This document shows positions 1 through 31,437 of a stretch of 31,437 nucleotides of DNA, piece after piece. The translations under genes were made by a program, and so were the position numbers. Below the pieces are notes generated by a model that was not told where the DNA came from, ran no database searches, and saw only the letters and a list, made by a program, of their open reading frames with translations. This stretch comes from Nitrospirota bacterium (GTDB lineage Bacteria > JACPQY01). The stretch's first letter is position 1; each line of letters starts with the position of its first letter. The DNA lies in the NCBI GenBank assembly GCA_016190245.1, contig JACPQY010000012.1, positions 1 through 31,437 on the forward strand, written 5' to 3'.

Positions 1-160
1 CCGGTCGGAGCCGTCAACCCCGAAAGACCCGACGCAGGAGGCGGAGGGTTCACCGCGCCGGATGCGCGGTGCGTCCAGGATGGGACAGGAGGTCATCCGA
101 TCTCCCCAAAACCCATGTACTCAAACTGCAGAGGAACCATACTTAATAGGAGGTGTTTTC

Positions 161-3100
161 ATGACCCACTATGCAGTTCCGCCAAGTACAATTCGATTCC
201 TGACAAGAGGCCGACCGCTCCGATGGGCGGCCGTCACGGTTGCGATTCTCGCGCTGGATGCGCCGCGATCACACGCTTTTCAGGCCCCTGCGCCATCGCC
301 TGGGAAGGTTCATCCAGCCGGTGCGAGCGATTCCTCATCGGGATCCGTGCCGGTCTTGGTTCTGGATTCGCAGGATTTCGGACGGAGCACGGTCTTTCGA
401 TTCGGCCCGTCAGAGGTGCTTGTCGGCGCCTCGGTGGACCGCGAGGAGCTACGCCGGCTGGTCTTCTCCTATCTGGGCCGTCATGGGCTTGGTGGCCCCA
501 CGGCTCTGAAGGAAGTCTACTTCCACGCCAGACCCGCACTCAACGGGCAACATCGCCTCCTCTATCTCCAGTTCGCCCAGACCGTCGAGGATCTTCTGAT
601 CGAGGGGGCTCGGGTTCACATGACACTCATCGAGGCGGATGGACGATTCACCGTGGCTTCCAGCCGTTCGAAACTCTACGAAAACGTGGAGCTTGCGCCG
701 CCGACGACGTTGAGCGACGACGCGTTGCAATCCAAGGCGGCCGAGGTTCTCGGGTTGTCCGGGAACAGGGCCGCACATCGCAGCATGGAACGGTTTGTGG
801 CCGAGGTGGAGGGAAGGCTTCGACGCGTGAGGGAGTACGTCTTCGAGCCCGCCCTCGACTCGGCTTTGGTGGATGAGGACACGGGGGAGGCGTGGAGACT
901 AAACCGTCGTCTCGAAGTTCCGGGGGTCATCACCCATGCGTCCGATTTGCGTCGGCCCGGTGTATTCGGAACCGTACAAGGGCTCGGCATCCTGTTTGAC
1001 CCCCTCAGCCCGGTGCTGGCGACGATGCTCATGGCGCATCAGCCGGTCACCGCCCAATCCCCCAGCGGTCCCCTCAACAGCGTGACCAACCTCCTCGGCC
1101 AGTTCGGGTTTCCCGGCATCCTGGTCCCCGTTCCCCTTTCCGCCACGCTGGGTGGGACCTATTCCGTACTCATTGATCCGACCACGCCGGTGCTGTCGGC
1201 CGGCCAGGTCGGTGTCCCGGGCGTGGAAAACAGCCTCTTCTTCAATGATGCAAACCCGATCGAACAGACCACAGCCCAGGTGACGGCCTACTACCACACG
1301 ACCCTCGTGCACGACTGGATCCAGAACCGGATGCCGGTGCCGCTCCCCGGTCTGGATATCCCGATCGCCACGCACGTCAACGATACGGCGGGGCCGGTCA
1401 CCGCCTGCAACGCCTACTATCAGCAGAGTGACAAATCGCTTCATTTCGTCTCCTCGGTGAACTACGGGATCTACCAGTGTGTGAACTCGGCGTTCGACAC
1501 GGTGGTGTCTCACGAGTACGGACACTTCGCGGATCATGTCGCGGGGGGGATTGTTGACAAGGGGGTCAGTGAAGGCTTCGGCGACATCATGGCGGTCTTC
1601 GCAAGCGGGCAACCCCTCACCGGCGAGAACTTCTTTGGTCCCGGGAGCTTCATTCGAACGGCTGATAACGACTACGCGTATCCCTGGGATGGTATGGACG
1701 AGGTCCACAACCTGGGCCAGTCGTGGGCGGGTTTTGCGTGGCACGCACGGGACGGTTTCATGGGTAAGTACGGTCCTCTACTCGGAGCGGCTGCAGCGGA
1801 TGCATTGTTCGTCCCGCTTCTCAACGCCAATTCCATCAACATCCCAACCGCGGTCTGGGATGCGATCATCGCGGACGACGACAATCAAACGCTTGCCGAC
1901 TTGACACCCAATTTCCCGGAGCTGGAAGCGGCTGCCCGGCGGCACAACCTCTCACCATTTCGGGACGGATCCGTCGCGCTCATCACCGGGCCCAAGGGTT
2001 CCAACTTCACCAGCAGCCAGACGTCGAGCGTCACCGTGACGGGGGTGGCCGATACGGCGCCCCTGGCCGCGCTGGGGCTCCAGTTCCGGGACTACCAGCT
2101 CTTCGTGGGGTCCGGCATCAATCCCGCCGACTATACTCCGCTCGGGCCACCGGTGACCTCGCCGGTCTCCACCGCGGGAACACTCGGAACCTGGAACCTC
2201 GCCGGTCTTCCCACGGGAACCCACATGCTCCAGGTTCGCGTCACGGCGACGAACGGAATGGAGTTTCAGGGGTTGGCGTGGAACGGTGTCGAGGCGAAGC
2301 CGTTCGTTCAGGTCTCACCCAACCAGCCCGGAGGCTACTACGCCTCGTCGATGGCTGGAGACGGCCAGCGGATCGTCTGGACCGGCATGTCCGACAATCA
2401 GATCCACACGTGTATCCATGACCCGTCCGTTGGAGCTTGTGTGAACGAGCAGGTGCTCACATCGGGCCAGGGTCAGCCCAAGCAGAATCCCCGGGTTTCG
2501 GGGAACCTGATTGTCTGGGAGGAGGGGCCGTCTGTGCCCTACGGCGGTCCGCACGACATCTACGCCTACCATCTGGGAACAGGTCAGCTCTATCCGATCG
2601 CTACGGATCCCTCGGCGGACGAAGCGGAGCCGGACGTGTCCGGTCATGCCATCGTGTGGGCCGATGTGATCTTTTCGACAGGTCCTGGGGGCAGCCCACT
2701 CATCTCGGCCACCGTCCTGACCTGCAACCTCAATCCCGGCACGGGGTCGTGCCCCCCTCAGATCGTTGCGACTTCCTCAGCGACGCAGTTCATTCTTCCT
2801 CCTGCCCGAATCTCGCAAAACCTGGTTTCTTGGGGTTCGTACAGCGGCCCCAGTCGTGCGCTGCATGTTCACAACCTGAGCACCCAGACCACCTTCACGA
2901 TCACAGCGCCGGCCGCCGTACCGTTTCTGAGATCCCTTTCCGGCAAAACCGTCCTGTGGCAGGACTACCGCGCCAATCACGTTCAGCCGCTCGGCCCGTG
3001 GCCGTTTGGTCACCCCTTCGCACAGGCCGACCTTTACGGCTGCGTCTATGACCCGGCCTCAGGCACCTGCCCGGAGGTCCCGATCGTGGTGCACCCTGCG

Positions 3101-3367
3101 GACCAGTCACGGGCGAGCCTGACCGGGAATCTTCTGGCGTGGATAGACGGGCGCAACGTCTCGGGATTCTCCTCGACTTGGTTCGGTGTCTATCCGAACA
3201 ATCCGGATGTGTACACGTGCACGCTTCATCCCGCCACGCTTGATTGCGGTCCGCAGCAGGTGACCGCCCACCCCGGCAGCGTGGGGGAGGTGGCCAGCAC
3301 GGGCAAGAATATCGTGTGGCAAGACCTTCGGGCCGGCGGGCCGTTCTTCTATCTTGAGGCGCCGTGA
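161..3367 (+). CDS. Secreted zinc metallopeptidase (thermolysin/fungalysin-like) with beta-propeller-like C-terminus
   Basis: Predicted exported protease of about 1068 residues. The ATG at 161 is preferred over the in-frame ATG at 62 because AGGAGGT lies six bases upstream (148-154) and the protein then opens with a signal peptide (basic start, hydrophobic stretch WAAVTVAILAL, cleavage near SHA-FQ). The zinc site is HEYGH at about residues 451-455, with the likely third ligand in GVSEGFGD (Glu about 471), the gluzincin arrangement of M4/M36 peptidases. The spacing from the second His to the Glu is shorter than in thermolysin. A roughly 300-residue region before the site should be the propeptide. 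After it come a beta-sandwich-like segment and, from about residue 740, at least five repeats ending in VW-D-R type strands (IVWEE, IVWAD, VLWQDYRA, AWIDGR, IVWQDLRA), typical of TolB-like propellers. The fold class is fairly certain; substrate and M4/M36 assignment are not. Confidence 0.8.
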   Translation: MTHYAVPPSTIRFLTRGRPLRWAAVTVAILALDAPRSHAFQAPAPSPGKVHPAGASDSSSGSVPVLVLDSQDFGRSTVFRFGPSEVLVGASVDREELRRLVFSYLGRHGLGGPTALKEVYFHARPALNGQHRLLYLQFAQTVEDLLIEGARVHMTLIEADGRFTVASSRSKLYENVELAPPTTLSDDALQSKAAEVLGLSGNRAAHRSMERFVAEVEGRLRRVREYVFEPALDSALVDEDTGEAWRLNRRLEVPGVITHASDLRRPGVFGTVQGLGILFDPLSPVLATMLMAHQPVTAQSPSGPLNSVTNLLGQFGFPGILVPVPLSATLGGTYSVLIDPTTPVLSAGQVGVPGVENSLFFNDANPIEQTTAQVTAYYHTTLVHDWIQNRMPVPLPGLDIPIATHVNDTAGPVTACNAYYQQSDKSLHFVSSVNYGIYQCVNSAFDTVVSHEYGHFADHVAGGIVDKGVSEGFGDIMAVFASGQPLTGENFFGPGSFIRTADNDYAYPWDGMDEVHNLGQSWAGFAWHARDGFMGKYGPLLGAAAADALFVPLLNANSINIPTAVWDAIIADDDNQTLADLTPNFPELEAAARRHNLSPFRDGSVALITGPKGSNFTSSQTSSVTVTGVADTAPLAALGLQFRDYQLFVGSGINPADYTPLGPPVTSPVSTAGTLGTWNLAGLPTGTHMLQVRVTATNGMEFQGLAWNGVEAKPFVQVSPNQPGGYYASSMAGDGQRIVWTGMSDNQIHTCIHDPSVGACVNEQVLTSGQGQPKQNPRVSGNLIVWEEGPSVPYGGPHDIYAYHLGTGQLYPIATDPSADEAEPDVSGHAIVWADVIFSTGPGGSPLISATVLTCNLNPGTGSCPPQIVATSSATQFILPPARISQNLVSWGSYSGPSRALHVHNLSTQTTFTITAPAAVPFLRSLSGKTVLWQDYRANHVQPLGPWPFGHPFAQADLYGCVYDPASGTCPEVPIVVHPADQSRASLTGNLLAWIDGRNVSGFSSTWFGVYPNNPDVYTCTLHPATLDCGPQQVTAHPGSVGEVASTGKNIVWQDLRAGGPFFYLEAP

Positions 3368-13604: not shown

Positions 13605-16178
13605 GTGGGAGACTTGGAACGGCTTGGACATCCTAGGACCGCTGAGGGCGAGTTCCTCGAGCCGGGCGAACCGCTCAGGGGGATTCCAACGGAAGCCGCG
13701 GGGTCCTGGGACTTCACAAGCGACAGCGGGAGCTTCAGCCACTTCTTCAAAGGCTGGATGGGTCTGATCCATTGGCCCGTCGAGCCCTACGTCACGGCCT
13801 GGATTCCCGCGCTCCAGCCATCCTTCGGGCTGGCACGCTGGGCGTTCCCGCTCAACAGCATGACGTTCCAGCCCGGGGCCCTCGCCATGTCGTTTCAGCT
13901 CGCCGACCTGCGCTTGAGGTTCAACATCCCCGTGGACACCTACCTCATCAGCGGTTTCCTCGACTGGGTGAACATCGACGAGAACGGGAACGAAGTGGAC
14001 ATTGACGTCGGGTCCGGGGAGACCGTGTTCGATGACCAGGGCCGGCTCAGCTACCTGCACGATTTCGATGTGGAGTCGAAAACGCACAAGGTGGTCGCCC
14101 ACGGAGTTCCTGAGGAGGAGCTCGAGGCAAAGGACCTGCGCGAGACCCAGGTGTACGTGTACAAGAGGATGCCCGACGGGTCGCTTGCTCTCCTGGCCGA
14201 TACGGTCCAGGTGCGGACGGAGTACACGCGCGACATGCAGGAAGGGGGGAGCGTCCATGACGCGCGTTTCCAGGCCAAGATCCACGGCAAGCGGGCCAAT
14301 CGCTCGAGCGCGGGGGGTTTTCGGTACGGGCCGAGCGAGATCCAAGTCTATCCCGGGGACAAGTTGCTGGCCGTGGCCGTGGACCGAGCCGGAGGATACG
14401 TCGGGATGCAGGAGGTCACCGCTCCGTCCCGAGCGGAGACCGGCTTCCTCGACATCCCCTTCTTCATGAAGATGTACCCCCCGGATATCGAGGTCGAGGT
14501 CGAGCGCGAGTACAAGCTGTTCGGCATCTCGGAGGGGCAGAAAGCCACCTCGCTCATCGGCTTCGAGGGGGCGGCCCTCCAGAGCGACGAGCAGATCCGC
14601 CTCAGGACAAAATGGATGTACAACGATTGCTCGGGCGATCCCCCACAGGCCCTGCCGAGGGACATTCCCCCAATGTCCGTGCGCTACGCGGAGATCAACC
14701 AAGGCGGCAACGGTTCCAAGCTGGGCACGGACGACGTGAAGCCGGGCCACCACACTCTGAATCTCAAACTCCCTCGAACCGCCGAGGGGTTCCCCACGCA
14801 CCACCTGTACCTCCACGTTGACCCCAGAGGCGAGAATCCCACGTTTGCCACTCGGACGTCTCCTTCCGGGCCTTGCGCAGAGGGTTTGGGCCGGCCGTGC
14901 AAGTCGGCCCAGGTGACGCCCGTGGTCCTGAAACGGTACACGGTCGAACAGGTGGGGGACCATGGGCTCGCTCCCGCCACCATCCCGATTCAGACGCCCA
15001 ATACCTGCCAGCCTCTCGAAAAGGACGTTGTGGAGGTCGAGACGGTCCGGGAGCGGGAGCCGGTTCGGTACACCCCGGAGGAGGTGGGCGACCACGGGAC
15101 CGATCCCAAGATCATCGACGGCAAGTTCGTGCTGAACGTGGAGAAGCACGAGGAGACGAGGGTGGATGAGTTCGGCAACCTCTTCGTCGTGACCGTCGTG
15201 GATGCCTACATCCTGGAGGAGCTCAAGGAGGAGAAGGCGAAGGCCTACATCGTCAAGGAGCGGATCAAGGCCCCCGAGATGCAGTACTCCATCTTCGGGT
15301 TCGACGTGAAGCACCTGTGCCTGGAGGCGGACGCCGCGACGCAGCAGGCCTTGAACTGCGAGGAAGAGGAGGGGAGGCGCGAGGACATCTGGCCCGAGGG
15401 GAGCGATGAGAAGAAGGACACCATCGCGAGCATCAACTTCTCCTTGTATGACTTCGCCTCGGCCGTCATGGATTTCAAGGATCCCGGTCAGGTGGCCCTC
15501 GAGGACATCGAGCGGACGTTCGTTTTCGAGACGAGCGACGGGCAGCAGCACACGATCCGGGTGGTCCAGGGGACGGTGATCGTGGATGGCGGGGAGGGCA
15601 AGCCGGAGATCGTGGACGGGATCGTGGTGTTTGGGCTCGAGAACATGATCGGGACGGGCGAGAAGGTCAACCCGACCGATTTCCAGTTCTTCCGACTGCT
15701 CTTGCAAGGTGACGAGGGGAACGTGTTGTGGGAGTTTGACTTGCCGGAGCTGAGCGGCAGATCCGTGGCGCTTGAGCCGACCGTGGAAGGACACTCGGAT
15801 TGGCTCGAGGCGTCGGGGCTGACGTTGATTCGGGTGGAGATCGATGGCGAGCTCTATCCGGAAAGTGATCTGGATCTGCGGTCCGAAACGAATGCGGACA
15901 CAAGAGCCCGCATCGTAGGCAGGGAGGACATTGACGGGGAGGAGTTCTACCGCGTCGAAGCCGAGAAGGACGATGCCGAATTGCGCTGGGGCCGAATGAT
16001 CGTGGATCTGAGGAATGTGGGGCGCTATGCGAAGCCTGGGAGCCGGATTGTCATCTCAGCCTACGATGTCACCGGATCGGGGACTTCCGCGGCCGAGCGG
16101 ATCGGGGACCTTACAATTCAGATTCAAAATATCCGAACGCAGGTTCTCATCGGATCTTTCTCAGGGATCTCGAAATAG
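13605..16178 (+). CDS. Unrecognised 857-residue beta-rich acidic protein
   Basis: I do not recognise the family. The sequence is acidic and rich in predicted beta strands, with Asp/Asn/Gly turns (VNIDENGNE) and many Glu, Asp and Val, like a multidomain surface or periplasmic protein, yet it has no signal peptide or membrane segment from this start. One motif appears twice, RYTVEQVGDHG and RYTPEEVGDHG (encoded near 14935-14965 and 15066-15100), about 45 residues apart. It lies 60 bases after the cytochrome gene in the same frame, with TGA (13542-13544) between them. The GTG at 13605 is the first start after that stop; ATG 13758, preceded by AAAGG, is an alternative. It may have lost its 5' end or be exported by an unusual route. 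A clear terminator follows. Confidence 0.65.
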   Translation: MGDLERLGHPRTAEGEFLEPGEPLRGIPTEAAGSWDFTSDSGSFSHFFKGWMGLIHWPVEPYVTAWIPALQPSFGLARWAFPLNSMTFQPGALAMSFQLADLRLRFNIPVDTYLISGFLDWVNIDENGNEVDIDVGSGETVFDDQGRLSYLHDFDVESKTHKVVAHGVPEEELEAKDLRETQVYVYKRMPDGSLALLADTVQVRTEYTRDMQEGGSVHDARFQAKIHGKRANRSSAGGFRYGPSEIQVYPGDKLLAVAVDRAGGYVGMQEVTAPSRAETGFLDIPFFMKMYPPDIEVEVEREYKLFGISEGQKATSLIGFEGAALQSDEQIRLRTKWMYNDCSGDPPQALPRDIPPMSVRYAEINQGGNGSKLGTDDVKPGHHTLNLKLPRTAEGFPTHHLYLHVDPRGENPTFATRTSPSGPCAEGLGRPCKSAQVTPVVLKRYTVEQVGDHGLAPATIPIQTPNTCQPLEKDVVEVETVREREPVRYTPEEVGDHGTDPKIIDGKFVLNVEKHEETRVDEFGNLFVVTVVDAYILEELKEEKAKAYIVKERIKAPEMQYSIFGFDVKHLCLEADAATQQALNCEEEEGRREDIWPEGSDEKKDTIASINFSLYDFASAVMDFKDPGQVALEDIERTFVFETSDGQQHTIRVVQGTVIVDGGEGKPEIVDGIVVFGLENMIGTGEKVNPTDFQFFRLLLQGDEGNVLWEFDLPELSGRSVALEPTVEGHSDWLEASGLTLIRVEIDGELYPESDLDLRSETNADTRARIVGREDIDGEEFYRVEAEKDDAELRWGRMIVDLRNVGRYAKPGSRIVISAYDVTGSGTSAAERIGDLTIQIQNIRTQVLIGSFSGISK

Positions 16179-18147: not shown

Positions 18148-18190
18148 CCGCGGTTCGCGGTTCTGGGGACGTTGCCAGGTAAAGCAGGAT
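18148..18190 (+). repeat. Left end of the REP element (hairpin plus inverted repeat)
   Basis: Hairpin 18148-18160 with a 5-bp stem, linker TTCT, then the 26-base repeat at 18165-18190, which matches the complement of 19219-19244 at 25 of 26 positions. Confidence 0.8.
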
Positions 18191-18206
18191 ATGGTAGAGG
18201 GCTGGA

Positions 18207-19190
18207 ATGCCGCGTGGCCCCAGACTTGATGTACCCGGTGCGCTGCATCACGTTATGGCCCGGGGCATTGAGCGAAGGCAGGTCTTTCGGGACGATGTGG
18301 ATCGAGACGACTTCCTCAGCCGCCTTGGGAGCCTGGCCGGGGAGAAAGCGTGGGTCGTCTACGCCTGGGCGCTTTTGCCCAATCACTTTCACCTTCTGGT
18401 CCGGACGGCGCGCCAGCCGCTGCCCCGGTGCATGCGCCGACTGATGACGGGCTACGCGGGGTTCTTCAATCGGCGGCACGGTCGGTCCGGTCACGTCTTC
18501 CAGAATCGGTACAAGTCGGTGGTGGTGGAGGAGGAGTCGTATTTCTTGGAGTTGGTCAGATATCTGCACCTCAATCCGGTTCGGGCTGGCGTGGTTGGGG
18601 GTCTCGATGAACTGGATCGATACGCCTATGCCGGGCACAGCGCGTTGATAGGACACGTGGAGCGGGATTGGCAGGAAACAGAGGCGGTCTTAGAGCGGTA
18701 TGGCAGGACATTGGTGAGGGCGAGGAGGGCGTACCGGCGATTTCTGCAGGAGGGGATGGCGAGGGGTCGTCGGAGTGACTTGGTTGGCGGGGGATTGGTC
18801 CGCAGCGCGGGAGGATGGGCGGCGGTGAGAGAGTTGAGGCGCGGGCGGGAGGCCTACCTGGGGGACGAGCGAGTGCTGGGATCCAGCCGATATGTGGAGA
18901 GGCTTCTGAAGGAAATGGAGGGTCGTGAGGCCGCCAAGATGAGTCGGGGGAGGAGCGCGCCTGCGTTCGAGGAGTTGGCTGCGAAGATGGCCAAGGAGTG
19001 GGGAGTGAGCGTCGGGGCGTTGACGGGAGGAGGCCGAGCTCGCAGGGTTTCACAGGCCCGGGCTGCATTGGCGCATGCTTGGGTGGAGGAATTCGGTCGG
19101 AGCGGGGTGGAACTGGCGAGGCGAATGGGCGTCAAACCCCAGTCGGTCTACGAGGCGATCGAGAGGGCTCGCAGTCGTGCGGGGGGGTGA
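18207..19190 (+). CDS. REP-associated tyrosine transposase (TnpA_REP, Y1/HUH family) with DnaA-like C-terminal helices
   Basis: 327-residue single-strand DNA endonuclease/transposase of the RAYT group. The opening MPRGPRLDVPGALHHVMARG is typical, the metal-binding HUH motif is LLPNHFHLLV (His 60 and 62), and the likely nucleophile is Tyr 83 in TGYAGFFNRRHG, followed by GHVFQNRYKS and YLHLNPVRAG. The C-terminal part (about 240-325) is Arg/Ala-rich and ends in a helix-turn-helix resembling the DnaA C-terminal domain (ELARRMGVKPQSVYEAIERA), as in many environmental RAYTs. Start ATG 18207 has GAGGG upstream. The frame is intact and both element ends are present, so it may be active. RAYTs are generally domesticated single-copy genes that mobilise REP sequences. 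Confidence 0.93.
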   Translation: MPRGPRLDVPGALHHVMARGIERRQVFRDDVDRDDFLSRLGSLAGEKAWVVYAWALLPNHFHLLVRTARQPLPRCMRRLMTGYAGFFNRRHGRSGHVFQNRYKSVVVEEESYFLELVRYLHLNPVRAGVVGGLDELDRYAYAGHSALIGHVERDWQETEAVLERYGRTLVRARRAYRRFLQEGMARGRRSDLVGGGLVRSAGGWAAVRELRRGREAYLGDERVLGSSRYVERLLKEMEGREAAKMSRGRSAPAFEELAAKMAKEWGVSVGALTGGGRARRVSQARAALAHAWVEEFGRSGVELARRMGVKPQSVYEAIERARSRAGG

Positions 19191-19218
19191 AGGAGCGGCC
19201 GGTGGAGGGCGATTCCTA

Positions 19219-19260
19219 ATCCTGCTTTTCCTGGCAACGTCCCCTCTTCCGCTGAAGCGG
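19219..19260 (-). repeat. Right end of the REP element (inverted repeat plus hairpin)
   Basis: The 26-base repeat at 19219-19244 is inverted relative to 18165-18190 with one mismatch. After a TCTT linker comes a short hairpin, CCGCT-GA-AGCGG, at 19249-19260. Confidence 0.8.
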
Positions 19261-21198: not shown

Positions 21199-21234
21199 AA
21201 AAAAACGCCGCCCCCGGATGGCCCGGGGGCGGCG
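21199..21234 (-). terminator. Strong intrinsic terminator of the minus-strand RNA gene
   Basis: A perfect 12-bp GC stem (21206-21217 with 21223-21234) with a 5-base loop is followed on the minus strand by seven T (21205-21199). It faces away from folK and ends the transcript started at about 21478. Confidence 0.9.
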
Positions 21235-21478
21235 GCCTGCTGACCAGGCGAAACTAAGGGGCGGGGCCTCCTGCAGGACGGAGGGCTGAGAATCCTGAGC
21301 AGGAGGGAGGGGCAGCCCCACCCCGTGGTACTAGGGAGTGTGGATTTTTTCGATCAGGTGGCCGGAGGCGAAGGAAACGGACCGAGATAGCGCCACGCCG
21401 CACACTGGGGCGGAGCAACCGGTGGTCCGTCCTTGTACCCCCACTCTGATCCCCTTATCCCCCATCACTAACTCTTGT
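21199..21478 (-). ncRNA. Highly structured small RNA of about 280 nt, family not recognised (possibly 6S-like)
   Basis: Non-coding unit between tatC and folK with its own consensus promoter and terminator. The 5' part folds into a long interrupted hairpin: GATCAG (21451-21446) with CTGATC (21357-21352), GTGG with CCAC inside that, and AAGGACGGACC (21434-21424) with GGTCCGT-TT-CCTT (21383-21371). Outer pairs GGAT/ATCC and AGTG/CACT extend it. The 3' part forms a second hairpin: GGGGTGGGGC (21324-21315) with GCCCCGCCCC (21267-21258, one G-U), then CTCCTGC (21305-21299) with GCAGGAG (21274-21268). A rod-like RNA with internal loops recalls 6S RNA, and CUCGGUCCGU also occurs in E. coli 6S as I remember it, but 280 nt is long for 6S. 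Conserved signatures of RNase P RNA, tmRNA and the SRP GNRA domain are not seen. No start codon with a ribosome binding site opens a credible frame. Confidence 0.75.
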
Positions 21479-21483
21479 GTGCC

Positions 21484-21511
21484 ATTATAGCGGAAACTGA
21501 TTTTTTGTCAA
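21484..21511 (-). promoter_or_regulatory. Consensus sigma70-type promoter of the small RNA, with AT-rich upstream region
   Basis: Perfect TTGACA (21511-21506) and perfect TATAAT (21489-21484), 16 bp apart. The region upstream on the minus strand is very AT-rich for this genome (15 of 60 bases are G or C at 21501-21560), like an UP element. Expected start is about 21478-21476. It is the strongest promoter in the window. Confidence 0.88.
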
Positions 21512-21591
21512 GTCTAGTGAGATATCATGAAGTATTTTGTAAAATAATGCGTATTTTCAATCCCTTGCATACAACATATGGGCGCAACCTA

Positions 21592-26194: not shown

Positions 26195-26347
26195 CCGCAG
26201 GCTCAAAGCCCCTTGCCAGTGAGGGCATGGGGCCATGCAATGCCATATGGCCTTCGCCTACCTCGGATTCCCGTCCGCGGTAGCCGCGGGCTTCCCGCCT
26301 GTCCAGTCCGCCACGGCGGACGGACTTCGGCGGGCAGGCAGCCCGCG
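26195..26347 (+). repeat. Palindromic repeat element, copy 1
   Basis: About 150 bp after the hydrolase gene. It holds CCGCAGGCTCAAAGCC (26195-26210), then GGTAGCCGCGGGCTT (26279-26293) leading into a nested cruciform: CGCGGGCT (26285-26292) with AGCCCGCG (26340-26347), CCCGCC with GGCGGG, and GTCCGCC-AC-GGCGGAC (26306-26321). The same blocks recur inverted at 28801-28920. Confidence 0.75.
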
Positions 26348-28772: not shown

Positions 28773-30026
28773 ATGAAACTGAGAGCCTCGAACGTCATGA
28801 CGCGGGCTGTCGCGCCAAAAGGCGGATCCGCCCAGAGGCGGAAAGCCCGCGGCTACCAAGAACATGAATCTCTGGTAGGCGCACCCGTGGAACGGGGCAC
28901 AGCAGGCTTTGAGCCTGCGGGGGGACTACGCCGACGGCTCACTCTGCCCAGCGCTCTAAGAGCCACTGTGCTTCCGCCGCTTCTTGCAGCACTATTTCTC
29001 TCCGGTCCATCCGGCTGCCGGGGCAAGGAGGCGCCCGCGCCCGCGGCCACCCACGAGCACGAGGGCCACGAGGCGGGAGCCAAGGCTGCTCTCTACCAGT
29101 GCCCGATGCACCCCTCGTACACGTCCGACAAACCGGGCGAGTGCCCCATCTGCGGCATGAAGCTCGTGCCCGTGGGCGAGTCCGAGCCGGAGGGGGAGAC
29201 CTCCTCGAACGTCCCCGGCCGCGTCACGGTGCGGATCTCGCCGGAACGGCAGCAGATCATCGGTGTGAAAACCGACGTCGCCGAGGTCAGGCCGCTCAAG
29301 AAAACCGTGCGGGCCGTGGGGAACGTCGCCTACGATCCCGAGCTGTACCAGGCGGAGAAGGAATACATCGAAAGCCTGAGCAGCCGGGACAAGACCGGAG
29401 GCGCTCCCGGCACTGTCGGTCTCGTGGAATCCTCCTCGATTCGCTTGAGACAGCTCGGCTTGAATGACGCGATGATCGCGGATCTCGCTCGTTCGAGAAA
29501 ACCTTCCCTGAACCTGCTGCTCCCGGAGGACACGATGTGGGTTTACGCGCAGGTCTACGAATACGAAATCAACTGGATCAGGGTGGGCCAGTCGATTTCC
29601 ACCACGTCGCTGGCGTTCCCCGGCGAGGTTTTCCGGGGAATTTTGAAGGCCATCGATCCCGTCGTGAATCCGGAGACGCGAACGGTGCGCATCCGGGCCG
29701 AGGTCAAGAACCCCGGTCGGAAACTCAAGCCGAACACCTTCGTCAACGTGGAAATCGAGACCGCGCTGGGAAAAGGGCTGACGATTCCCCGCGATGCTGT
29801 TATCGACAGCGGCGATCGCAAGATCGTGTTCGTGAATCTCGGCGAAGGGAAACTCCAACCGCGGGAGATCCGCACGGGCATCGAACTGGCGGACCACGTG
29901 CAGGTTCTGGAGGGGCTGGCGAAAGGAGACAAAGTCGTCACCTCGGCCAACTTCCTGATTGATTCGGAATCCTCGCTCAAGGCCGCGGTCAAGCAGATGG
30001 GCGGCCATACGGGTCACGGTCAATAA
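28773..30026 (+). CDS. cusB: Metal efflux periplasmic adaptor, CusB family, with a repeat insertion near its N-terminus
   Basis: 417-residue membrane-fusion protein that links the inner-membrane pump to the outer-membrane channel. The lipoprotein signal core is at about residues 66-82 (VLPPLLAALFLSGPSGC, Cys 82), followed by a His-rich linker (HEHEGHEAG) and a heavy-metal-binding domain YQCPMHPSYTSDKPGECPIC. Then comes the adaptor body (VTVRISPERQQIIGVKTD, a short helical hairpin, barrel and membrane-proximal parts). The start at 28773 has a strong GGAGGAG site. Codons 10 to about 50 are made of a palindromic repeat also found at 26195-26347, in frame, so the signal peptide has an abnormally long basic N-region. 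A GTG at 28968 would give a normal short signal but has no ribosome binding site. Confidence 0.92.
   Translation: MKLRASNVMTRAVAPKGGSAQRRKARGYQEHESLVGAPVERGTAGFEPAGGLRRRLTLPSALRATVLPPLLAALFLSGPSGCRGKEAPAPAATHEHEGHEAGAKAALYQCPMHPSYTSDKPGECPICGMKLVPVGESEPEGETSSNVPGRVTVRISPERQQIIGVKTDVAEVRPLKKTVRAVGNVAYDPELYQAEKEYIESLSSRDKTGGAPGTVGLVESSSIRLRQLGLNDAMIADLARSRKPSLNLLLPEDTMWVYAQVYEYEINWIRVGQSISTTSLAFPGEVFRGILKAIDPVVNPETRTVRIRAEVKNPGRKLKPNTFVNVEIETALGKGLTIPRDAVIDSGDRKIVFVNLGEGKLQPREIRTGIELADHVQVLEGLAKGDKVVTSANFLIDSESSLKAAVKQMGGHTGHGQ
28801..28920 (-). repeat. Palindromic repeat element, copy 2, inside the cusB coding sequence
   Basis: Inverted relative to copy 1. CGCGGGCT (28801-28808) pairs with AGCCCGCG (28844-28851) around the palindrome GGCGGATCCGCC (28821-28832). 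AAGCCCGCGGCTACC (28843-28857) is the exact complement of 26279-26293, and GGCTTTGAGCCTGCGG (28905-28920) of 26195-26210. The 120 bp equal 40 codons with no stop, so the frame is kept. Confidence 0.75.
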
Positions 30027-30040
30027 CGGGTATCACGACC

Positions 30041-31437
30041 ATGATCGAAAAGCTGATCGAAGCCTGCGCCAAGAACCGATTCATGACGCTTCTCGTCATC
30101 CTGAGCATCGCCGTGTTCGGAGTGTGGTGCATCAAAAACATTCCGCTGGACGCGATTCCGGATCTATCGGACACGCAGGTCATCGTCTACTCCCGATGGG
30201 ACCGCAGCCCGGACATCATGGAGGACCAGGTGACCTATCCCATCATCTCGGCCATGCTCGGCGCCCCGAAGGTCAAGGCCATCCGGGGCTTCTCCGATTT
30301 CGGCTACTCCTACGTGTATATGATTTTCGAGGACGGCACCGACATCTACTGGGCGCGGAGCCGCACGCTGGAATACCTGAGCAAGGTCACACCCCGGCTG
30401 CCGGAAGGCGTCAGAGTGGAGCTTGGCCCCGATGCCACCGGCGTCGGCTGGGTTTTTCAGTACGCGCTGGTGGACACCTCCGGCCGGCAGAGTCTTGCCG
30501 ATCTCCGGAGCTTTCAGGACTGGACGCTCCGCTACTATCTCCAGGGAGTGCCGGGCGTGGCGGAAGTGGCGCCGATCGGCGGATTTGTGCGCCAGTACCA
30601 GGTGAACCTCGATCCCAACGCGCTCCTCTCGTACAAGATCCCCATCGAGAAGGTGATGGAGGCCATCCGCAACGGCAACAACGACGAGGGCGGGCGGCTC
30701 CTCGAATTCAGCGGAAGGGAATACATGGTGAGGGGCAGAGGCTACGCCCGGAGCACGGCGGATATCGAGAAGATTGTCGTGGGCGTCAGCCCCCAATCCG
30801 GGACGCCGATTCTCGTGAAGAATCTTGGGAGCGTGGTGCTGGGGCCGGATATCCGGCGCGGCCTGGCCGATTTGAACGGCGAGGGGGACGTCGTGGGCGG
30901 AATCGTGATCATGCGCCACGGCGAGAACGCGCTCAAAGTCATCGACCGGGTCAAGAAGAAGCTCAAGGACATCGAGCCTACGCTTCCGGAGGGCGTCAAG
31001 CTGGTGACGACGTATGACCGCTCGGACCTCATCCTCCGCAGCATCGAAACGCTCAAAGATACGCTGGTGGAAGAAATGGTCGTCGTCAGCCTGGTCATTC
31101 TTGTCTTCCTCTGGCACATCCCTTCGGCCATCATCCCGATCTTCACGTTGCCCATCGCGGTGCTCTTCGCGTTTATTCCGATGTATTTCATGGGCCTCTC
31201 CAGCAACATCATGTCCCTCGGCGGCATTGCGGTGGCGATTGGCGCCCTCGTGGACGCCGCGGTGGTCGTGGTGGAGAACGCCCACAAGAAGTTGGAGCGA
31301 TGGATGCGGGAGGGAAGGCAGGGAGACTACCGAACCGTCCTCATCGGCGCCATCCAGGAGGTCGGGCGTCCCTCCTTTTATTCCCTCATGGTCATCGCCG
31401 TGGCGTTCATCCCCGTTTTTACGTTGGAGGCGCAGGA
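30041..31437 (+). CDS. cusA: CusA-type heavy-metal RND efflux pump (partial, runs off the window)
   Basis: First 465 codons of an inner-membrane proton-driven pump of the HME-RND family, for Cu(I)/Ag(I) by similarity. It starts MIEKLIEACAKNRFMTLLVI and contains VDAIPDLSDTQV-like PLDAIPDLSDTQVIV, FSDFGYSYVYMIFEDGTD, the strongly CusA-like LGPDATGVGWVFQYALVD, and the TM4 proton-relay region IAVAIGALVDAAVVVVENAH with its conserved Asp. These match CusA better than CzcA, which exports divalent ions. The ATG at 30041 is 14 bases after the cusB stop; no strong ribosome binding site is seen, so coupling is likely. The methionine-lined metal site lies beyond the window. Confidence 0.95.
   Translation, partial: MIEKLIEACAKNRFMTLLVILSIAVFGVWCIKNIPLDAIPDLSDTQVIVYSRWDRSPDIMEDQVTYPIISAMLGAPKVKAIRGFSDFGYSYVYMIFEDGTDIYWARSRTLEYLSKVTPRLPEGVRVELGPDATGVGWVFQYALVDTSGRQSLADLRSFQDWTLRYYLQGVPGVAEVAPIGGFVRQYQVNLDPNALLSYKIPIEKVMEAIRNGNNDEGGRLLEFSGREYMVRGRGYARSTADIEKIVVGVSPQSGTPILVKNLGSVVLGPDIRRGLADLNGEGDVVGGIVIMRHGENALKVIDRVKKKLKDIEPTLPEGVKLVTTYDRSDLILRSIETLKDTLVEEMVVVSLVILVFLWHIPSAIIPIFTLPIAVLFAFIPMYFMGLSSNIMSLGGIAVAIGALVDAAVVVVENAHKKLERWMREGRQGDYRTVLIGAIQEVGRPSFYSLMVIAVAFIPVFTLEAQ

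Follow-up and report, generated by a model that had tools for sequence, protein, structure and literature searches.

A candidate regulatory RNA with an invariant 86-nt 3′ module between tatC and folK in a poorly sampled candidate phylum

In the B11/6C RNAs, the C-rich loop of a terminator hairpin binds G tracts at ribosome-binding sites (PMC12395582), and going by the title of a 6C paper cited in PMC12395582, C-rich loops in mycobacteria pair without chaperones. RNAIII also uses C-rich loops against G tracts at ribosome-binding sites (PMC2837412), and Yfr1 carries an ultraconserved unpaired ACUCCUCACAC ahead of a terminator hairpin (PMC2190773). 6S RNA canonically has a closing stem, a central bulge and an apical arm (PMC8414754).

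Here, we analysed a window of 31,437 nucleotides, the whole stretch of contig JACPQY010000012.1 (Nitrospirota bacterium), and found an RNA gene on the minus strand of 21199-21511, which reads TTGACA, 16 nt, TATAAT, the transcript region, a GC hairpin and seven T residues. Upstream, also on the minus strand, is tatC (Pfam TatC), which stops 80 bases before the -35 hexamer, while the folK frame (HPPK, Pfam) is convergent with the RNA gene and stops 11 bases short of the T tract. Nothing that the RNA could regulate in cis lies downstream, and therefore the gene between tatC and folK is a real and independent transcription unit. Its sigma-70 promoter is a 12/12 match to the consensus (0.2 promoter-like sites are expected in shuffled sequence), which bears out the perfect hexamers described in the earlier note; the AT-rich block that the note placed upstream is plain in the sequence. 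The GC terminator is likewise present, as a stem of 13 pairs (21206-21234; the note gave 12 bp) followed by T7. The predicted transcript is about 280 nt long on the minus strand, with a start predicted near 21477 from the position of the -10 hexamer.

The comparison rests on one relative in the phylum, a genome of the same family and another genus (G001, 97% complete; the window's own genome, G000, has 3.29 Mb and is 85% complete). The RNA gene is present in this relative in the same place, in the same order tatC - RNA - folK, with a 12/12 promoter of the same spacer at the same position. All 86 nt of the 3′ module are identical between the two genomes, and identity drops to about 25-60% just outside it; the promoter and the first transcript bases, at ~70-80% identity, are the exception to the diverged flanks. 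As yardsticks between the same two genomes, TatC is 61% and FolK 54% identical, SRP RNA is 84% identical, and tmRNA is 74% identical, its longest unbroken match being 29 nt. When all identical runs of at least 45 nt were listed between 1.49 Mb of the window's genome (including the window) and 1.17 Mb of the relative, twelve were obtained. The module is the longest (86 nt), the eight runs ranked second to ninth (53-79 nt) are tRNA genes, and the last three, of 45-47 nt, include a repeat family and a coding region; identical stretches of at least 50 nt in the compared portions are tRNA genes and this RNA only. Within the portions searched, each genome holds one copy of the module. Its paired stems are no more variable than its loops: between the two sequences, 44 paired bases are unchanged and compensatory changes are absent. 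Because the module is the longest identical run and otherwise only tRNA genes reach such lengths, the RNA is probably an important regulator of an undescribed family; with its single copy number, the same facts make chance, neutral descent or a mobile fragment poor explanations. Judged from the sequences, the chief property of this RNA is the tRNA-like invariance of its 86-nt 3′ module, which shows only when a second genome is compared.

A covariance model of the module, searched against 386 genomes of many families, found the window's genome and its relative only, with the 384 others negative, and the module was not found in viral contigs, plasmids or phages. An exact 20-mer of the loop region occurs in 0 of ~85,000 species genomes, a set that may lack the records closest to the window. 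The TatC proteins of named genomes are at most 43% identical, so there is no close named relative, and the module is missing from the flanking sequence of the tatC genes nearest to it among named genomes. The RNA appears restricted to a candidate phylum that is poorly sampled.

These data also bear on the alternative that the module is a young mobile fragment, whose identity reflects recent transfer or gene conversion. Exchange between the two lineages is probably real: a 2.4 kb metal-efflux locus at window 29055-31437 (a CusB/HlyD-like gene and the sequence after it) is 91% identical to the relative, where most of the window is ~70% identical, and is probably a recent transfer between the two lineages. 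That exchange, however, spans kilobases and not exactly 86 nt in a diverged syntenic locus, and the RNA gene is syntenic with a conserved promoter, yet its sequence has diverged on both sides of exactly 86 nt. Unlike the dispersed repeats of the window's genome, the module moreover occurs once per genome, and it is absent from plasmids, phages and the other 384 genomes, so that we regard a mobile origin as very improbable. As for the repeats themselves, dispersed hairpin-forming elements are common to both genomes (window 26196-26242 and 28843-28899; L237:12185-12354), and a single repeat query matched 26 times in 1.49 Mb of the window's genome and 7 times in 1.17 Mb of the relative. An IS200-like (Y1) transposase gene at window 18165-19244, with 26-nt inverted repeats on either side that are 96% complementary, is possibly linked to them. 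Elsewhere in the window, open frames of 1101 and 857 aa at 62-3367 and 13605-16178 (+) have no Pfam match.

The whole stretch folds better than shuffled sequence (z -2.8). The earlier note had described two self-complementary domains, of which one stands: the 86-nt module folds better than shuffles (z -2.5), but the 5′ domain does no better than chance either in the window (z +0.5) or in the relative (z -0.4). The predicted helix of the module consists of 10 + 7 + 5 pairs, namely GGGGUGGGGC/GCCCCGCCCC, then CUCCUGC/GCAGGAG, then AGGAU/GUCCU, and is interrupted by a 9-nt bulge UGCCCCUCC after the first ten pairs and by a 2-nt bulge before AGGAU/GUCCU (Table 1). Both the bulge UGCCCCUCC and the loop UCUCAGCCCUCC are predicted to be unpaired in the two genomes, so the module is predicted to share the mark of the 6C/B11-like class, a stable hairpin close to the 3′ end whose C-rich loop is left unpaired. 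An alternative pairing of GGGGUGGGGC with the bulge CCCCUCCC is ~11 kcal/mol weaker in the complete module and is predicted to be favoured until the 3′ arm is made. In the relative, the 3′ arm directly abuts UGUUUUCUUUUU, so that the module itself has the appearance of the terminator hairpin in that genome; in the window, no U tract follows the module and a separate terminator lies downstream instead.

Table 1. Features of the RNA gene and its surroundings in window coordinates.
Feature	Position	Strand	Basis
AT-rich block, UP-element-like, from the tatC stop to -35	21512..21590	-	sequence; equivalent in G001 also AT-rich
-35 hexamer TTGACA	21506..21511	-	part of 12/12 promoter; identical in G001
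-10 hexamer TATAAT, spacer 16, conserved context CCGCTATAATG	21484..21489	-	promoter scan; comparison with G001
Variable 5′ half of transcript; folding not beyond chance	21343..21483	-	alignment, shuffles
Short conserved element GAGUUAG in the 5′ half	21468-21474	-	alignment with G001
Possible 44-codon ORF (MGDKGIRVGVQ...EKIHTP), UAG within the conserved module; unproven	21331..21465	-	
Invariant 3′ module, 86 nt, identical in G001	21257..21342	-	comparison with G001
18-nt leader of the module, CACACUCCCUAGUACCAC	21325..21342	-	unpaired when the module is folded alone; paired in part in predicted full-length folds
5′ arm GGGGUGGGGC	21315..21324	-	predicted; pairs 21258-21267 (stable form) or alternatively the bulge CCCCUCCC
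9-nt C-rich bulge UGCCCCUCC, candidate pairing segment	21306..21314	-	predicted fold
12-nt apical loop UCUCAGCCCUCC, candidate pairing segment	21280..21291	-	predicted fold
3′ arm GCCCCGCCCC	21258..21267	-	predicted fold; alignment
Separate terminator hairpin and T7; window genome only	21199..21234	-	terminator scan

The 5′ half, for which the comparison consists of two strongly diverged sequences, raises the question of whether the transcript is translated. The statement of the earlier note that it holds no credible reading frame was too strong: the window has an unproven frame of 44 codons ending at the UAG of the leader, and the relative has one of 34 codons that shares this stop and whose start, GTG, aligns with that of the window. 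A transcript with a dual function, or one for a small protein, on the model of RNAIII or SgrS, would encode a peptide of 34-44 aa in its 5′ half, with the module as 3′ UTR or regulatory domain. The aligned RTG start and the common UAG within the module point in this direction, as does an AGGAG placed 7 nt before the start in the relative; frames of at least 30 codons in both sequences arise in 0.5% of shuffled 5′ halves (a frame chosen after looking). On the other hand, the Shine-Dalgarno sequence of the window copy is poor, the two peptides are barely alike, the mismatches are spread evenly over codon positions (13, 11 and 13 over 63 nt) with no bias, and the alignment of the starts may reflect simple homology. 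We consider a coding role quite unlikely.

Searched with all Rfam families, as the earlier note advised with 6S included, the window gave no match at gathering score, and at E up to 10 it gave chance-level matches only, mostly to hairpin-terminator parts of unrelated RNAs. The RNA is not RNase P RNA, tmRNA or SRP RNA, in agreement with the earlier reading; we rejected these identities on finding all three elsewhere in both genomes, RNase P RNA below the cut-off but clear. The RNase P RNA of these genomes (L033 in G001, L034 in G000) reaches 85 and 57 bits where the cut-off is 100, at 543 and 423 nt, and is divergent or enlarged in their phylum. 6C RNA was set aside because no sequence or structure match appeared among all Rfam families, and Yfr1 because its motif ACUCCUCACAC is absent (the RNA here has CACACUCCCUAGUACC), again with no Rfam match.

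The nearest idea of the earlier note, a divergent or enlarged 6S RNA, fits the strong promoter, and RF00013 found no 6S RNA in the window's own genome (85% complete), whether at the RNA locus or elsewhere. Bacteria usually have one 6S gene per genome, though some have two. The relative carries this RNA as well as a genuine 6S RNA at C4:13463-13645 (57.4 bits, cut-off 46.4), and because of that separate gene the 6S reading is refuted. In line with this, the 6S plan of a closing stem formed by the 5′ and 3′ ends, a large central bulge and an apical stem is absent from the predicted folds of both genomes, and the module is a self-contained hairpin at the 3′ end. The probability left to a 6S identity is negligible.

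We tentatively favour a regulatory small RNA with its own transcription unit, which is probably abundant and belongs to an undescribed family, and assign this reading a probability of about 0.4. Synteny in a second genus, the conserved promoter and the invariant module uphold the view of the earlier note that this is an independent, strongly promoted and structured small RNA, possibly of a new family. The module would expose three C/U-rich unpaired segments, CACACUCCCUAGUACC in the leader, the bulge UGCCCCUCC and the loop UCUCAGCCCUCC, which may pair without Hfq with the G-rich ribosome-binding sites of several mRNAs and thereby block their translation or promote their decay. The GC-rich hairpin would stabilise the RNA and, in the relative, may also terminate its transcription. 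If the targets are many and simultaneous, as we propose, the segments would be unable to change, and mutually exclusive pairings of the GGGGUGGGGC arm may account for part of the invariance of the stems. The 16S RNA of the relative ends in CACCUCCUUU, which implies GGAGG-like ribosome-binding sites, and the C/U-rich open segments of the module resemble this anti-Shine-Dalgarno end. Hfq (PF17209) was not detected in the window's genome (85% complete) or in the relative (97% complete), on which ground an Hfq-dependent small RNA was rejected. Given the lack of detectable Hfq, the C/U-rich open segments and the known RNAs of this type, we favour chaperone-independent regulation of many mRNAs. A CsrA sponge was also considered and rejected, as the GGA motifs of the module sit in paired stems.

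Pairing with targets was assessed over 546 orthologous start regions, which represent a quarter to under half of each genome with rough start calls. For the bulge, 65 pairs were jointly strong against 46 +/- 13 for shuffled segments, and 5 of 60 shuffles did as well, so the surplus is not significant; over the same start regions, the loop and the leader (the latter with fewer pairs than shuffles) showed no excess, and no long complement of the leader beyond chance was found in either genome. With partial genomes and rough starts the target test is a weak one, and the mechanism therefore stays inferred. Among the best conserved candidate targets, orthologous gene starts at L128:7658 (window's genome) and L218:18570, minus strand (relative), carry GUGGGAGGGGC and GUGGAGGGG before the start codon, which are complementary to the bulge, over 9 nt in GUGGGAGGGGC and more weakly in the orthologue of the relative, and not significant alone.

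The main rival to antisense regulation is a structural, protein-binding RNA, in which a protein or a large complex would recognise the entire module as a fixed three-dimensional element. The candidate partners are the ribosome, RNA polymerase and a so far unknown RNA-binding protein, and the constraint would then be tRNA-like and not antisense-like. Antisense pairing alone does not predict stems as invariant as loops, since an antisense RNA would be expected to keep its seeds fixed and let its stems drift through compensatory changes. The 44 unchanged paired bases would be better accounted for by a protein or the ribosome binding the whole element, or by alternative pairings in which the stem strands take part. 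The equal invariance of stems and loops over 86 nt, matched only by tRNA genes in the portions compared, the lack of enriched complementarity to mRNAs in the start regions and the strong, constitutive-looking promoter all agree with a protein-bound RNA, but the open segments are markedly C-rich, like those of known pairing RNAs, there is no match to a known protein-binding RNA family, and no protein partner is known or linked. We hold a protein-bound role to be a real possibility, if a doubtful one. A more specific form, a housekeeping-type structured RNA of one candidate phylum that serves the core machinery (ribosome or RNA polymerase) as a fixed scaffold or as a ligand, and not as antisense, appears unlikely; if true, it would be a new functional class of bacterial non-coding RNA with tRNA-like constraint over 86 nt.

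The RNA is better conserved than SRP RNA, tmRNA and the neighbouring proteins, yet it has no match among the described families, and each of the 86 bases, those of the stems included, appears to be under some constraint. Once that constraint is explained, the RNA would emerge either as a central regulator in an uncultured phylum or as a new RNA partner of core machinery, and as its sequence is short, the RNA is directly testable.

Set beside the known systems, the RNA is like 6S RNA (RF00013) in its promoter of the abundant-RNA type and a length of ~200-280 nt, and unlike it in architecture and in the presence of a true 6S RNA elsewhere in the relative. It shares with RNAIII of Staphylococcus aureus the C-rich hairpin loops and a 3′ domain that is the most conserved part (PMC2837412). 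RNAIII differs in its many hairpins and its agr control, and the two have no sequence relation. At 514 nt, RNAIII also carries a short ORF, and the possible upstream ORF here is similar. In contrast to the RNA described here, in which 86 nt are invariant including the helices, the Yfr1 RNAs are 54-69 nt long, with an 11-nt invariant motif between two hairpins and variable helices, and the present RNA has no Rfam match; both nevertheless have a CU/CA-rich ultraconserved unpaired stretch (ACUCCUCACAC; here CACACUCCCUAGUACC) before a GC-rich terminator hairpin, in a conserved gene neighbourhood (PMC2190773). From 6C/B11 of mycobacteria and other actinobacteria, the RNA is separated by phylum and by the lack of a sequence or Rfam match, and it has one asymmetric hairpin with a bulge and a loop where B11 has stem-loops with C6 and C9 loops. 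Like 6C/B11, however, it belongs to a GC-rich host, is strongly conserved in sequence, carries a C-rich loop in or beside a terminator hairpin and, as we infer here, may pair independently of chaperones (PMC12395582).
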